A stretch of 41,273 nt of DNA. Origin: Thiotrichaceae bacterium. GTDB taxonomy: Bacteria; Pseudomonadota; Gammaproteobacteria; Eutrophobiales; Eutrophobiaceae. The DNA is taken from positions 1 through 41,273 of the forward strand of contig DUBV01000011.1 of NCBI GenBank assembly GCA_012960105.1, in the 5' to 3' direction. Below are positions 13,968 to 20,656 of this stretch, piece after piece. A model generated the notes under the pieces. The model searched no databases. It was not told the DNA's origin and saw nothing but the letters and a program-made list of their open reading frames with translations. Position 1 is the first letter of the stretch. Each line of letters starts with the position of its first letter. A program made the translations under genes and the position numbers.

Positions 13968-15878
<1,911 letters not shown>

Positions 15879-15896
15879 ATTAATTTATTTGCTTAT

Positions 15897-16886
15897 TTAA
15901 TAGCAGGGGAAAAACTTTTCGCTTGGAATATGTTTCGTGATGATGTCTTTACAGAAGCCTAGCATGTCATCACGAATTTCTACTGGATAGCTAATACTAT
16001 TATTTTCTTCTGTTAGTGGCGATGCAAAAAGTTTTTCATCCGGGTAGAGTTTTTCAAGTTTGCGAAAGTAATCCTTCGGTAGCCTGAAAGTACCCAAACT
16101 TACAGAGTGTGTTAACTCAGGATTAATTTTTGTAAAGATACGATCAAATAATTCACTGTATTCATTAGCGAAACCTTTCGTGTAAATCAGCGGATCAAAG
16201 CGTAAACCCACTTGCCAGCCGGCTTCTTGCAAATCAAGTATTGCTTGTAATCGTTTATTAACGTCAGGCGCTTTATGTTCCAGTGCTTGTGCAATTTTAT
16301 CGGGTGTAAAACTAAAAGCGATAACGCAGTTTTTGATAGGTTCTCGTTTTAATAGACTACGTATTTGTGTGCTTTTAGTTCTCAATTCTAATAATGCTTG
16401 AGGGTTTCTTTCAAAGAAAGGTAAGAATTCATTTGTAAAATCAGTGACGGGGTCGAGAGCAAGGCTGTCGCAATCATAGCCAGAGAAAAAATGAACGGGC
16501 TCATTATTATGTTTGTTTAATGTAGAGTTCATGTCTTCGATGAAATCTTCATAATTTACAAACAAAATATAATGCGCAGATTGAAACATGCCTTGTAAAA
16601 AACAATAGCGGCAGTCATATAAACAATTCAACATATGTGAAAAATAATAGTTATGTTCTGCACCTATGCCATATTGTATTGGCGTCGGTAATACGAGGCT
16701 TTTATGCTTTCTTGCCAGAATTAGTGCGGGCTGTTTTTTTTGTAATCTAAAGTTTTGTGATTTTCGATTGAATATTTCTCCATAACGTTCGCACATGATT
16801 TTGGTTGTTTCTGGAAATCGTTCAAGAATTGCCAATGTGCGCGGATGCGAGGCAATCTCTTCTTCTATGTATATAGTGCTAATCAT
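15897..16886 (-). CDS. Spore photoproduct lyase-like radical SAM protein
   Basis: Radical SAM protein of the SplB family, 329 residues, in an organism with no sign of sporulation. The cluster motif C-x3-C-x2-C is Cys88, Cys92 and Cys95 (NCLYDCRYCFLQ), the family spacing. Cys139 in GYDCDSLALD sits about where B. subtilis SplB has its hydrogen-donating Cys141. True SplB reverses the spore photoproduct, a thymine dimer, in DNA. Proteobacterial relatives have no assigned substrate that I know of, and repair of another UV lesion is a guess. It is the last gene of a four-gene operon and overlaps the nucleosidase gene by eight bases, so their translation is coupled. Confidence 0.85.
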   Translation of the reverse strand: MISTIYIEEEIASHPRTLAILERFPETTKIMCERYGEIFNRKSQNFRLQKKQPALILARKHKSLVLPTPIQYGIGAEHNYYFSHMLNCLYDCRYCFLQGMFQSAHYILFVNYEDFIEDMNSTLNKHNNEPVHFFSGYDCDSLALDPVTDFTNEFLPFFERNPQALLELRTKSTQIRSLLKREPIKNCVIAFSFTPDKIAQALEHKAPDVNKRLQAILDLQEAGWQVGLRFDPLIYTKGFANEYSELFDRIFTKINPELTHSVSLGTFRLPKDYFRKLEKLYPDEKLFASPLTEENNSISYPVEIRDDMLGFCKDIITKHIPSEKFFPCY

Positions 16887-17697
16887 GAATCACAAACTCA
16901 GATGCGTTAATCTTTTCACGCAATACATTTAAAACAGACTTGCCGGTCGTGTTTTCAATCACATGTTTTGTTATTTCATCATTAGGTAGTCGCAAATTCC
17001 ATTGCTGCAATAAACGAGATAGCTGGACTCGTTCAGACTGAGTGAAATGCCATCTTTCTAAAAATTCTTTGTATTCTTTAGGTTCGGAAATAATAGAGTC
17101 GATTTCCAATGTTATTGGTTTCAATGAATCCAGTATATTTTTGATAGTTATTACATGCTTAGCCATCATTTTTTTTACACTATCAGCATTCACTGTTGAT
17201 GTAGCTTGTTCGGCATTGTCTGAAATGATTTTTAGACTATGAATTAATTCAGCGGTGCCTAGACGAATGGCCATTTGATAGAAACCGGATGCTTCCATAT
17301 CAAATAATGCATCTTGGTAATCATCAGAAGGTTTGTCTAGTGTGATTAAAGCGATGCTGTCACAAGGGGCTTTGAAAATTATCTGTGGGTACCAACAGGA
17401 CTTTGTCTGTTCCTCAGTAATTTTATTTACTAAACGGGCTTCGCCAATAGAAATATCGGCATGACCAGCAACACCAATATTCAACCAGATGTCACTAGCT
17501 TTAGTGTTGAGGCTAGCATGATGATAACTAACGGCTGAAGCTGCATTTAGTTTTCCTATTCCCGTTATAGTTAAATCAATCTCTTTGTCTTTAGATTGAT
17601 AGATACGAAATAAATCAAACTGTTTTAATTCAGTTAATTTGAAATTCTGAATGATGGGTTGAGCTTCGCAGGGAAGGGCACAAAAAATATGAATCAT
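16879..17697 (-). CDS. Nucleoside phosphorylase/MTAN-like protein coupled to SplB
   Basis: Protein of 272 residues whose first ~170 match the PNP/UDP phosphorylase and MTA/SAH nucleosidase fold. Visible active-site equivalents are Glu11 (ALPCEA), the TGIGKLNAA and NIGVAGHA glycine loops, Met134-Glu135 in FDMEASGFYQMA for ribose binding, and Asp160 in IISDNAEQ, the purine-N7 acid of MTAN. About 90 extra C-terminal residues (about 182-272) are helical and have no family I recognise. A nucleosidase overlapping a radical SAM gene suggests removal of 5'-deoxyadenosine made by that enzyme, but this is inference. Confidence 0.75.
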   Translation of the reverse strand: MIHIFCALPCEAQPIIQNFKLTELKQFDLFRIYQSKDKEIDLTITGIGKLNAASAVSYHHASLNTKASDIWLNIGVAGHADISIGEARLVNKITEEQTKSCWYPQIIFKAPCDSIALITLDKPSDDYQDALFDMEASGFYQMAIRLGTAELIHSLKIISDNAEQATSTVNADSVKKMMAKHVITIKNILDSLKPITLEIDSIISEPKEYKEFLERWHFTQSERVQLSRLLQQWNLRLPNDEITKHVIENTTGKSVLNVLREKINASEFVIHD

Positions 17698-17702
17698 AAT
17701 AT

Positions 17703-18158
17703 TTATTTCAATATATCTTTCTTTGATAAACAGCGTTCAATAAAGGATGCCCATGTTTCATTCGGTTGCCATATAACCAGCATGTCTTTTTCAACAGTTT
17801 CATTATCACAGTTTAGTTTTATAATGCGGTAAAGATATATAAAACAAACTACGCGCCAGTTGTAAGCGCAATGTACGAATATCGTCTTGTCATCATGTTG
17901 TTCCATTGCTTTGAAAAAATAGTTTATATTAGTTGGCTTATGCTTTTTGAAGATAACGGGAATATGAATGTAAGTCATATTATTTTTTTGAACGATTTGT
18001 TTTTCATTGATAATGGCGCTGGGCGAGTCTGCTGTTGCTAAATTAATAACGATCTTAATGCCCGCATCTTTGATCATTAGAAACTCTTCTACAGTTGGTT
18101 GCGCTGAAGTATGTATCTTGCCTGATATTTTTTTATATTGATTAAGATTGTTGAGCAT
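17703..18158 (-). CDS. Dual-specificity/PTP-like phosphatase protein with a CX4R loop
   Basis: A 151-residue protein of the cysteine-phosphatase fold, with the opening GKIHTSAQPTVEEF and IVINLA strand of the DUF442/BLH-like group. The P-loop region reads VHCAYNWRV: Cys97 and Arg102 are separated by four residues, whereas active PTPs have five (HCX5R). I recall similar HCA-x-N-x-R loops in proteobacterial relatives, so this may be a subfamily feature, and activity is uncertain. It starts 17 bases inside the glycosyltransferase gene and ends five bases before the nucleosidase gene, so it belongs to the SplB operon. Substrate unknown. Confidence 0.75.
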   Translation of the reverse strand: MLNNLNQYKKISGKIHTSAQPTVEEFLMIKDAGIKIVINLATADSPSAIINEKQIVQKNNMTYIHIPVIFKKHKPTNINYFFKAMEQHDDKTIFVHCAYNWRVVCFIYLYRIIKLNCDNETVEKDMLVIWQPNETWASFIERCLSKKDILK

Positions 18159-18972
18159 ATTGCTTTAATAACATCTCGAATTGTTCAGAGTATTCATTGT
18201 TGCCATGTTTCTCTGCACCTTTGAGAAAAATTTTAATTTTATGTAATAACATATCTATGGCAGCTAATTTGTCAGCTTCATATAAATTATTTGATGCAAT
18301 GCTTTTTTCCAAAGCTATAATCCGAAAACGATCCATGCCCCAGTGCTGTCGTGATAATTGATCGTCATGGCCGCCGAATTTATTGGTTAATGCTTCATCT
18401 AGAAATAGCACTGGGTATTTGCAACATATTCGTAGCCACATGTCGTAATCTTCACATGCGGGTAAATTTTCATCAAATAAACCTACATCATCAAATATTT
18501 GTTTATTAATTATGACTGACGATGGTGAGATAGCGCAAAGAGGCAGGCAATGTTGAAAAACATGACCGCCGAGTTTTTCATGTTTTTTACCCTGATTTAA
18601 TATTTTTCCATTTCTATACCATGTTTCATTAGTATGACAGATTAAATGATCCGGGTTATTAGTGAATGCTTGAAATTGTTCGGTTAGTTTGTTTGGTTGC
18701 CAACTGTCATCAGAATCAAGGAAACAGAGCCATTCACTACTTGATGCATTAATTCCGGTATTTCGCGCTGCACTTACGCCTTTATTGCTTTGTTTTATAA
18801 ATTTTATTTGCGGATATTGATTCTTTAATGATTCTTGAGTTTCATCGGTAGAACCGTCATCAATCACAATAATTTCATCCGCAGGCAAAGTTTGAGTAAG
18901 AACGGAGTCAATTGCACGTGGCAAAACAGATGCTCGGTTATAGCTAGGGATAATTACTGTGATTTTATACAT
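18142..18972 (-). CDS. Family 2 glycosyltransferase
   Basis: GT-A fold glycosyltransferase of family GT2, 276 residues. The N-terminus ITVIIPSYNRASVLPRAIDS and IVIDDGSTDET bind the nucleotide sugar. The metal-binding motif is D-S-D in CFLDSDDSW (about residue 85), and the putative base region is CEDYDMWLRI (about 175). No membrane segment is evident, so it is probably peripheral. Acceptor and sugar cannot be told from sequence. First gene of the minus-strand operon with the PTP-like, nucleosidase and SplB-like genes, overlapping the next by 17 bp. It is unusual company for a glycosyltransferase. Divergent from the SDR gene across 80 bp. Confidence 0.88.
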   Translation of the reverse strand: MYKITVIIPSYNRASVLPRAIDSVLTQTLPADEIIVIDDGSTDETQESLKNQYPQIKFIKQSNKGVSAARNTGINASSSEWLCFLDSDDSWQPNKLTEQFQAFTNNPDHLICHTNETWYRNGKILNQGKKHEKLGGHVFQHCLPLCAISPSSVIINKQIFDDVGLFDENLPACEDYDMWLRICCKYPVLFLDEALTNKFGGHDDQLSRQHWGMDRFRIIALEKSIASNNLYEADKLAAIDMLLHKIKIFLKGAEKHGNNEYSEQFEMLLKQYAQQS

Positions 18973-19052: not shown

Positions 19053-19808
19053 ATGACACGCCTTAAAGATAAAATTGCAGTAATTACCGGTGCCAGTAGC
19101 GGTATAGGTCGCGGTATTGCTGAAGCCTTTGCTCGGGAGGGTGCGGATGTTGTCGTTAATTATCTAAAGTCCAAAGACAGCGCTGAATCATTAGTCGAAG
19201 AAATTAAGCAATCAGGCCGACGCGCTATTGCTGTACAGGCTGATATGGCGAATGAAGATGATATTGACCGTTTGATTGAAAAAACCATCGAAGAGTTTGG
19301 CCGTATTGATATTTGGGTCAATAATGCCGGTGCAGATATTTTAACAGGTACCGGTGCCGCGGCTGAAATTCATGAAAAACTGGAACATCTTATTGAAGTT
19401 GATCTTAGAGGAACGATTAACGCTTGTTGGTCGATAACTCAAACCATGCAAGAGCAGGGATATGGGGTCATTGTTAATATGGGATGGGATTTGGCAACGC
19501 ATGGTTTCGAAGGAACCAATCCACAAATATTTGCGGCAACAAAGGCAGGTGTACTCGGTTTTACCCGTTCTTTTGCGAAATCTGTAGGGCCTGAAATCAG
19601 GGTTAACTTGGTTTCTCCAGGTTGGATCTCAACGGCATTCGCAGAAGACCATATGGATGCTGAATATCGTCAGGCCAGAATCAGTGAAATTCCACTTGCG
19701 CGGTTTGGACGACCTGAAGACGTTGCCGCCGCTGTTGTTTTCCTCGCTTCCGATGATTCTTCTTATTTAACAGGTGAAGCTATTAAGATTAATGGTGGTT
19801 TAGTTTAA
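19053..19808 (+). CDS. SDR-family protein lacking the catalytic Tyr and Ser
   Basis: Classical short-chain dehydrogenase/reductase fold of 251 residues. The cofactor loop TGASSGIGRG (about 12-21), NNAG and the PG motif (VSPGWIST) are intact. The catalytic Y-x3-K is F-A-A-T-K (TTT codon, not Tyr), and the region where the catalytic Ser normally lies reads NMGWD. I recall a subfamily with an MGWD segment and Phe at this place, so it is probably a defined group and not a damaged gene. Its reaction, if any, is unclear, and a FabG role is unlikely. It lies alone between the divergent glycosyltransferase operon and a convergent zinc-ribbon gene. Confidence 0.85.
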   Translation: MTRLKDKIAVITGASSGIGRGIAEAFAREGADVVVNYLKSKDSAESLVEEIKQSGRRAIAVQADMANEDDIDRLIEKTIEEFGRIDIWVNNAGADILTGTGAAAEIHEKLEHLIEVDLRGTINACWSITQTMQEQGYGVIVNMGWDLATHGFEGTNPQIFAATKAGVLGFTRSFAKSVGPEIRVNLVSPGWISTAFAEDHMDAEYRQARISEIPLARFGRPEDVAAAVVFLASDDSSYLTGEAIKINGGLV

Positions 19809-20116: not shown

Positions 20117-20632
20117 TTAGTAATGAACTAATGAATGAATATCGTATTTCGATAATTTATCTCTACCTTTTAGAAAATCCAGTTCAATAACAAAAGCACA
20201 AGCGACTACTTCAGCGCCTAATTTCTCAACTAATTTACAACTGGCTGCAGCTGTTCCACCTGTAGCTAGTAAATCATCGACTAGTAATACACGGTCACCT
20301 TCTGCAAATGCATCAATATGTACTTCTAAAGAAGCAGAGCCGTATTCCAGGTCATAAGACATGCTGGCAACGTCGTAGGGTAGTTTCCCGGGTTTACGTA
20401 AAGGAATAAAGCCTACGCCTAGTTCCATAGCAGCAAGTGTCCCGAATATAAAACCTCGTGCTTCCATCCCGGCAACAGCGGTAATATTTTGTCCTAGAAA
20501 AGGATGAATTAATTGGTTTACCGAGAGTTTTAACATCGCTGGGTCTTTAACTAGGGGAGTAATATCTTTGAATTGTATTCCGGGTTCAGGAAAGTCTGGA
20601 ATATTTCGAATATAAGCTTCTAGGCGTTGCAT
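20117..20632 (-). CDS. apt: Adenine phosphoribosyltransferase
   Basis: Purine-salvage enzyme converting adenine and PRPP to AMP, 171 residues. The type I PRTase signature VLLVDDLLATGGTAAA is the PRPP-binding loop, and the adenine-side segments FPEPGIQFKDITPL and GMEARGFIFG are standard. The start is set at ATG 20632 because TTGGAGA lies six bases upstream. An in-frame TTG at 20644 would add four residues but has no ribosome-binding site. Adenine released by nucleosidases such as the one at 17 kb would be a substrate. Divergent from tag across 38 bp. Confidence 0.96.
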   Translation of the reverse strand: MQRLEAYIRNIPDFPEPGIQFKDITPLVKDPAMLKLSVNQLIHPFLGQNITAVAGMEARGFIFGTLAAMELGVGFIPLRKPGKLPYDVASMSYDLEYGSASLEVHIDAFAEGDRVLLVDDLLATGGTAAASCKLVEKLGAEVVACAFVIELDFLKGRDKLSKYDIHSLVHY

Positions 20633-20656
20633 GTATGTCTCCAATTAAATTTTCTC

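Follow-up and report, generated by a model that had tools for sequence, protein, structure and literature searches.

Introduction

Radical S-adenosylmethionine (SAM) enzymes work with nucleosidases in several described pathways. The hopanoid pair HpnH-HpnG and the menaquinone pair MqnE-MqnB each join a radical SAM enzyme to a nucleosidase of the 5'-methylthioadenosine/S-adenosylhomocysteine nucleosidase (MTAN) type, and HpnH/HpnG/HpnI and MqnE/futalosine hydrolase are adenosylation-type routes. We analyzed a locus in a 41,273-nucleotide stretch from a Thiotrichaceae bacterium (contig DUBV01000011.1 of assembly GCA_012960105.1; the whole stretch is called the window below), in which an MTAN-like nucleosidase (NUC) and a radical SAM protein (SPLB) lie in one set of genes with a GT2 glycosyltransferase (GT) and a protein resembling protein tyrosine phosphatases (PTP-like). 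SPLB and NUC thus resemble the hopanoid and menaquinone pairs in placing a radical SAM enzyme and an MTAN-type nucleosidase in one apparent route, but SPLB belongs to the fold family of spore photoproduct lyase (SPL), and NUC also occurs without SPLB.

In the SPL literature, the available excerpts of PMC3742179 assign the hydrogen-donor role to Cys140 (Gt numbering; Cys141 in Bs), and excerpts of that paper and of PMC5368176 describe the roles of C140/C141, Y97, and Y99. A further comparison is offered by QueK and QueL of Clostridioides difficile, which excerpts of PMC11130926 and PMC9210968 describe as a nucleoside hydrolase and a radical SAM queuine lyase of a tRNA-related pathway; this pair also couples a nucleoside hydrolase with a radical SAM enzyme.

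Our central finding is that GT, NUC, and SPLB are a conserved unit, which outside the window's family is often adjacent to and co-directional with a short-chain dehydrogenase (SDR) of ~238 residues, SDR2. These genes belong to a real and conserved pathway that is undescribed as far as we searched; a literature search of open-licence papers found no description of a GT-NUC-SPLB unit. The sequence-only reading of the window had suggested an undescribed multi-enzyme pathway and was right in outline, with GT-NUC-SPLB as its conserved unit and SDR2 as a frequent partner elsewhere that is missing from the window.

Results

GT, NUC, and SPLB co-occur across relatives

The four window genes lie on the minus strand in the order GT, PTP-like, NUC, and SPLB, and their open reading frame (ORF) coordinates yielded exactly the 17-bp overlap (GT/PTP-like), 5-bp gap (PTP-like/NUC), and 8-bp overlap (NUC/SPLB) previously listed for them. 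Among 58 closely related genomes, including the window's own, close SPLB orthologs were found in 27 (55-100% identity, fragments included), and the matches in three others (G001, G026, and G045) reached just 25-27% and belonged to a separate SPL-like group. NUC was present in 29 of the 58, comprising the 27 SPLB genomes, G001, and G045. GT (E<1e-60) was detected in 27/29 NUC-positive relatives and in 0/29 NUC-negative relatives, with 4.5e-34 as the best GT match in any of the latter. The PTP-like gene (E<1e-15) was found in 19/29 NUC-positive and 7/29 NUC-negative relatives. A survey of all four families, proposed earlier as a check, therefore bore out the co-occurrence of GT, NUC, and SPLB, but not a strict association of the PTP-like gene, which is a looser accessory rather than a strict member of the unit. 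Gene maps of close relatives displayed a co-directional GT-(PTP)-NUC-SPLB arrangement, with PTP absent or short in several, and this gene order recurs across many loci, more than expected by chance. The nearest named relatives were Gammaproteobacteria or Thiotrichaceae metagenome-assembled genomes.

We observed the same association in a class sample of 369 genomes (SPLB at E<1e-130, SDR2 at E<=1e-55). SPLB was present in 49 genomes, NUC in 58, and SDR2 in 42; five further SPL-like matches scored 1e-32 to 1e-42 and were clearly separated from the SPLB set. SPLB and NUC occurred together in 46 genomes against 7.7 expected (Fisher 1e-43, with phylogeny not corrected for), SDR2 and NUC in 41 of the 42 SDR2 genomes (6.6 expected), and SDR2 and SPLB in 32 of the 49 SPLB genomes (5.6 expected). 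By ORF labels, the full order GT-NUC-SPLB-SDR2 was present in 17/45 loci (L139-L183; L and G numbers are our handles for loci and genomes). A wider contig scan yielded at least 580 stretches encoding a relative, where one locus can give two; the titles of the best 80 loci, which we kept, were those of gammaproteobacterial groups, Proteobacteria, or uncultured bacteria, with many methanotrophs. Scans of viral contigs found no relatives.

The partners also co-occurred away from the operon. NUC with a full C-terminal domain was present in 8/8 SPLB genomes reached through named loci, and in the seven methanotroph-type genomes of those eight the stretch fetched around NUC contained no SPLB. The cultured methanotroph Methylobacter tundripaludum SV96, for example, encodes SPLB with SDR2 (L110), NUC, and GT. 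Of 26 genomes chosen where GT was unlabelled beside SPLB or NUC, 14 contained GT, which adjoined NUC in three (G198, G249, and G330) and lay elsewhere in 11, at 2.3 kb from NUC in G406 and ~13 kb in G402. The other 12 lacked GT; G145 and G095 lacked NUC as well, and ten had NUC.

SPLB has the SPL fold with a tyrosine at the hydrogen-donor position

SPLB (15897..16886, minus strand, 329 residues) was assigned from its ORF, Pfam and NCBIfam comparisons, alignments, and a predicted model. It passed the Pfam SPL family PF20903 (E=6e-22, 78.4 bits, cut-off 27) but fell below the cut-offs of both curated NCBIfam spore photoproduct lyase families, TIGR04070 (93.7/400 bits) and TIGR03886 (81.8/437.55 bits). 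The AlphaFold2 (AF2) model, with a predicted local distance difference test score (pLDDT) of 86.4, matched six SPL entries at Z 31 with 318-323 residues aligned (321/329), whereas the next match, RlmN, reached Z 14.5. The predicted model thus spans the full-length fold of the Geobacillus SPL (SplB; PDB 4fhc/4rh0), with which SPLB also shares CxxxCxxC and a tyrosine before the third cysteine (Y94), at 17-18% identity. As the sequence-only reading had claimed, the cluster cysteines are kept; C88, C92, and C95 were invariant in 21 orthologs and in 17 diverse rows.

That reading had also placed a cysteine about where SplB has its hydrogen donor. C139 was indeed invariant in the 21 orthologs, but in two sequence alignments it faced Ser142 of the solved SPL, two residues from Cys140, and it was Thr or Ala in three distant rows, from Fusobacterium and gut bacteria. 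The residue facing the donor Cys140 in both alignments was Tyr137, invariant in 17/17 diverse SPLB rows. Of the relay-tyrosine positions, Y96 (Gt) was kept as Y94, while position 98 was F96 in all 38 gammaproteobacterial rows aligned and tyrosine in the Fusobacterium row and two gut rows. SPLB is in the SPL structural family, yet it fails several of the criteria that define a true spore photoproduct lyase.

These residues bear on DNA photoproduct repair, which had been put forward as one role for the locus and in which SPLB would mend spore photoproduct, or a pyrimidine lesion akin to it, while NUC cleared 5'-deoxyadenosine. The complete SPL fold of the predicted model and the cluster cysteines are consistent with such a role, as is the position of UvrB immediately upstream of GT in a single lineage (L178). 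According to excerpts of PMC5368176, the conserved cysteine of Clostridium acetobutylicum SPL sits elsewhere in the chain, so that the donor position can move and the loss of Cys140 alone does not exclude spore-photoproduct chemistry. Against repair stand the variable C139, the score of 93.7 bits against a 400-bit curated cut-off, and the recurrent partners SDR2, GT, and NUC, which SPL lacks and none of which is a repair protein. Because the donor position is Tyr137 and the relay position is Phe96 in the aligned gammaproteobacterial members, spore-photoproduct repair by SPLB is unlikely, and we regard the repair account as a whole as quite improbable. Excerpts of PMC3765255 tie other SplB-like proteins to ImuB-C/SOS operons; no genes of such operons turned up among the neighbors scanned here.

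A second SPL-like group of ~412-476 residues, extended at the N terminus and carrying GTGQSSD (GSGQASD in L197) in place of GYDCD, was present in several SPLB-lacking genomes and some SPLB-bearing ones (L028:1051-2346, L224:4336-5631, and L197:6454-7884), and once adjoined GT-NUC-SDR2 (L197).

NUC carries a helical C-terminal domain that tracks SPLB

NUC (16879..17697, minus strand, 272 residues) consists of a nucleosidase core (residues 1 to ~195) and an all-helical C-terminal domain (~200-272). Its sole Pfam match was PNP_UDP_1, just above the superfamily cut-off (E=5.6e-6, 26.4 bits, cut-off 25.1), and it fell below all NCBIfam cut-offs, including PRK05584 (22/169 bits) and the futalosine hydrolase profile (1.6e-5, 24.8/124.7 bits). 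Over residues 1-200, the NUC model (pLDDT 94.2) matched MTA/SAH nucleosidases and futalosine hydrolase with Z scores of 20-23. In MTAN the catalytic residues are Glu12, Glu174, and Asp197 (E. coli numbering); E11, M134-E135, and D160 are conserved in NUC, and E11, E135, and D160, matched by motif, were invariant in 26 aligned rows. NUC accordingly shares the fold of residues 1-200 and these residues with MTAN (Pfs) and futalosine hydrolase but has an extra ~70-residue helical C-terminal domain. These helices found no match in a structure comparison of the whole NUC model, in which the domain was not searched alone, and comparison with the N-terminal domain of the ~430-residue SPL group did not support homology (hhalign, 19 columns, probability 8%). 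We rejected NUC as a QueK, since the families differ (PNP_UDP_1 versus nucleoside hydrolase IPR023186 for QueK in the available part of PMC11130926).

The C-terminal domain is tied to SPLB. Among 86 NUC loci, the long form was present in 74/74 from SPLB-positive genomes and 1/12 from SPLB-negative genomes; in these counts L159 was set to the long form by its 273-residue frame (the script gave 73 and 1), and G304 was counted as SPLB positive on a contig-edge fragment. In genomes lacking SPLB, NUC mostly ends at residue 187-210. Within genus g60, SPLB accompanies long NUC in two genomes, and a third without SPLB has a NUC that stops after ~204 residues. The SPLB label changed at least 5 times on starred branches of a tree built from the nucleosidase part.

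Distant loci join the two proteins more closely. In Fusobacterium vincentii (L056:7104-8975), NUC and SPLB are one 623-residue ORF followed by SDR2, and the order NUC-SPLB-SDR2 occurs on a gut scaffold that is filed as phage. A second gut scaffold, L058, encodes SDR2, a 160-residue protein aligning with NUC, and SPLB; the 160-residue protein has no Pfam match and has lost the catalytic part of NUC, including E11 and E135, while keeping the C-terminal part. The L056 record is filed as a 2.1-Mb plasmid but, judged by its length, is more chromosome-like, and that stretch has no annotated features. These observations suggest that the C-terminal domain of NUC probably serves SPLB, and we infer that it docks NUC on SPLB.

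Seven loci had contiguous GT-NUC-SDR2 and no SPLB. Read most simply, NUC has its C-terminal domain for the sake of SPLB, and its nucleosidase core also works beside GT and SDR2 where SPLB is absent. Clearance of 5'-deoxyadenosine from the radical SAM reaction, which the sequence-only reading had assigned to NUC, is possible given that NUC and SPLB are partners by the fusion and the C-terminal domain, but it cannot be the sole job of NUC, since NUC persists without SPLB beside GT and SDR2.

Disposal on a broader scale would have NUC hydrolyze whole-cell 5'-deoxyadenosine or 5'-methylthioadenosine, with the SDR and GT detoxifying 5-deoxyribose and SPLB merely a heavy producer. The MTAN fold and catalytic residues of NUC fit this proposal, and of the 58 relatives only G043, which belongs to a different family than the window genome, encodes an MTAN above the curated cut-off. 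The available text of PMC8102628 reports that 5'-deoxyadenosine inhibits radical SAM enzymes, in keeping with such disposal. The SPLB-tied domain and the fusion speak instead for a specific partner, GT2 is an odd tool for the task, and NUC is absent from 311/369 class genomes and thus too rare for general salvage. We consider this proposal improbable.

The same fusion and domain data fit equally well with an adenosylation route of the hopanoid side chain or futalosine type, where SPLB would add a 5'-deoxyadenosyl group to an acceptor, NUC would yield a ribosyl product by stripping adenine, and the free ribose would be reduced by the SDR and glycosylated by GT. A set of radical SAM enzyme, MTAN-type nucleosidase, SDR, and GT2 fits the order of such routes, the weak match of NUC to the futalosine hydrolase profile points the same way, and MqnE was among the structural matches of the SPLB model at Z 13. 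SPLB is, however, far nearer SPL (Z 31) than MqnE, and NUC-GT-SDR2 persist without SPLB. In L058 the catalytic part of NUC is missing while SPLB and SDR2 stay, a loss that should break the route. We regard adenosylation as a doubtful alternative.

GT, the PTP-like protein, and the dehydrogenases

GT (18142..18972, minus strand, 276 residues) matched Glycos_transf_2 at E=1.9e-35, and other GT2 matches in the window genome were at 1.7e-10 or weaker. We rejected an arsenosugar route, for which GT matched TIGR04283 only below the cut-off (70.1/182 bits) and a literature search gave nothing.

Of the four families named earlier, GT2, PNP_UDP_1, and SPL were recovered by Pfam and NCBIfam comparisons. 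The PTP-like assignment (17703..18158, minus strand, 151 residues) was weak, with no match reaching its cut-off (PTP-NADK 1.9e-5; Blh NF040641 1.2e-10, 40.9/625 bits). The canonical protein tyrosine phosphatase loop is HCX5R. The PTP-like protein instead has HCAxNxRV, invariant in 15/15 rows, which makes a C-x4-R loop one residue short of CX5R and sets it apart from CX5R protein tyrosine phosphatases. In L186-L190 this family is also found where no neighbor is labelled NUC or SPLB, and in L186-L188 it lies beside the 251-residue SDR described below.

SDR2 directly follows SPLB in many methanotroph loci and is absent from the window genome. In the window's family, a divergent 251-residue SDR that is not SDR2 (19053..19808, plus strand, starting 80 bp upstream of GT) holds a near-constant place and adjoins GT in nearly all mapped loci; it possibly substitutes for SDR2. 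At L110:4350-6001 and in loci like it, two ORFs run divergently from SPLB-SDR2, one of 191 residues and the other proC (so named in L110); ORFs of these two sizes recur in many methanotroph loci.

Neighboring genes

Genes of tRNA modification were direct neighbors in operon position in some relatives: TmcA in L167, L172, and L209 (three genomes of one genus), Dus in L169, L171, and L201 (three genomes of one genus), and TrmO in L202 (one genome). These neighbors point at tRNA, although they stand among many unrelated ones.

In the window, apt (20117-20644, minus strand) lies beyond the divergent SDR and outside the operon, and it was within the fetched stretch in 15/80 named loci. These positions do not favor the earlier suggestion that NUC feeds adenine to apt. 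Scans for promoters and terminators found no excess over shuffles.

On the other side, a convergent ORF that we take from its sequence to be thiC (13998-15878) ends 18 bp from the SPLB stop (window 15879-15896). Symporter- and glnE-like ORFs separate SPLB from thiC in several relatives (scanned in L031), an arrangement from which those of the window, L043, and L070-L073 differ. In L031:8725-11339, the one such locus scanned with Pfam, glnE is two ORFs of 430 and 440 residues; pairs of equal length adjoin thiC in L034-L036 and L038, and L047 has a single 873-residue ORF there, reading like glnE. The ~480-residue gene after SPLB in relatives, guessed by length to be a photolyase, was a sodium:solute symporter in the three scanned (L031, L033, and L050).

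Discussion

GT, NUC, and SPLB travel together, and the role of their pathway is probably not spore DNA repair. Our leading, if tentative, account is that these genes belong to a conserved pathway of modification in which the target of SPLB, with NUC docked to it, is not spore photoproduct but most plausibly a tRNA nucleoside. SPLB would make a 5'-deoxyadenosyl radical and take a hydrogen from a nucleotide-like substrate, and docked NUC would remove the resulting 5'-deoxyadenosine and thereby drive turnover. The SDR may then reduce or oxidize a carbonyl or hydroxyl of the SPLB product, and GT2 may cap the product with a sugar. Where a lineage has no SPLB, the remaining GT, NUC, and SDR2 would run a shorter version.

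Several observations weigh against this account. In the window's own genus, G001 lacks SPLB and keeps long NUC, the sole exception to the domain pattern, and independent pairs comparing the C-terminal domain with SPLB gave 4:0 with one tie of five (p 0.125). NUC in genomes without SPLB means that removal of 5'-deoxyadenosine is not its only role. Membership is also uneven: in the class sample, 17/58 NUC genomes were without SDR2, and 3/49 SPLB genomes had no scored NUC, although two of these (G087 and G329) are one genus in which an ORF stands at NUC's place, and the third (G095) is 82% complete. The ten chosen genomes with NUC and no GT included four of the seven methanotrophs and three of family f67, and GT was not at the Fusobacterium and gut loci. 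A phylum draw found the family in 1/398 genomes, the window's own (E<=1e-50), so it is patchy. The tRNA-modification neighbors come from three lineages among many unrelated neighbors (UvrB, MOSC, DUF1820, DUF169, SSF, PGM, PMSR, Usp, and others), and they may have arisen by chance.

A bolder form of the modification pathway, which we regard as speculative and rather doubtful, is a novel system for hypermodifying tRNA in Gammaproteobacteria, a Fusobacterium, and gut bacteria, in which NUC-docked SPLB would attack a (dihydro)pyrimidine or other tRNA nucleoside, and the SDR and GT2 would finish a glycosylated base.

SPL-like proteins tend toward annotation as spore photoproduct lyases, and also as DNA repair photolyases, and the SPLB family presents a full SPL fold without the hydrogen-donor residue. 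If our account is true, SPLB would represent a second chemistry for the SPL fold, and the SPLB-NUC pair would be an example from nature of a radical SAM enzyme carrying its own by-product or product nucleosidase.

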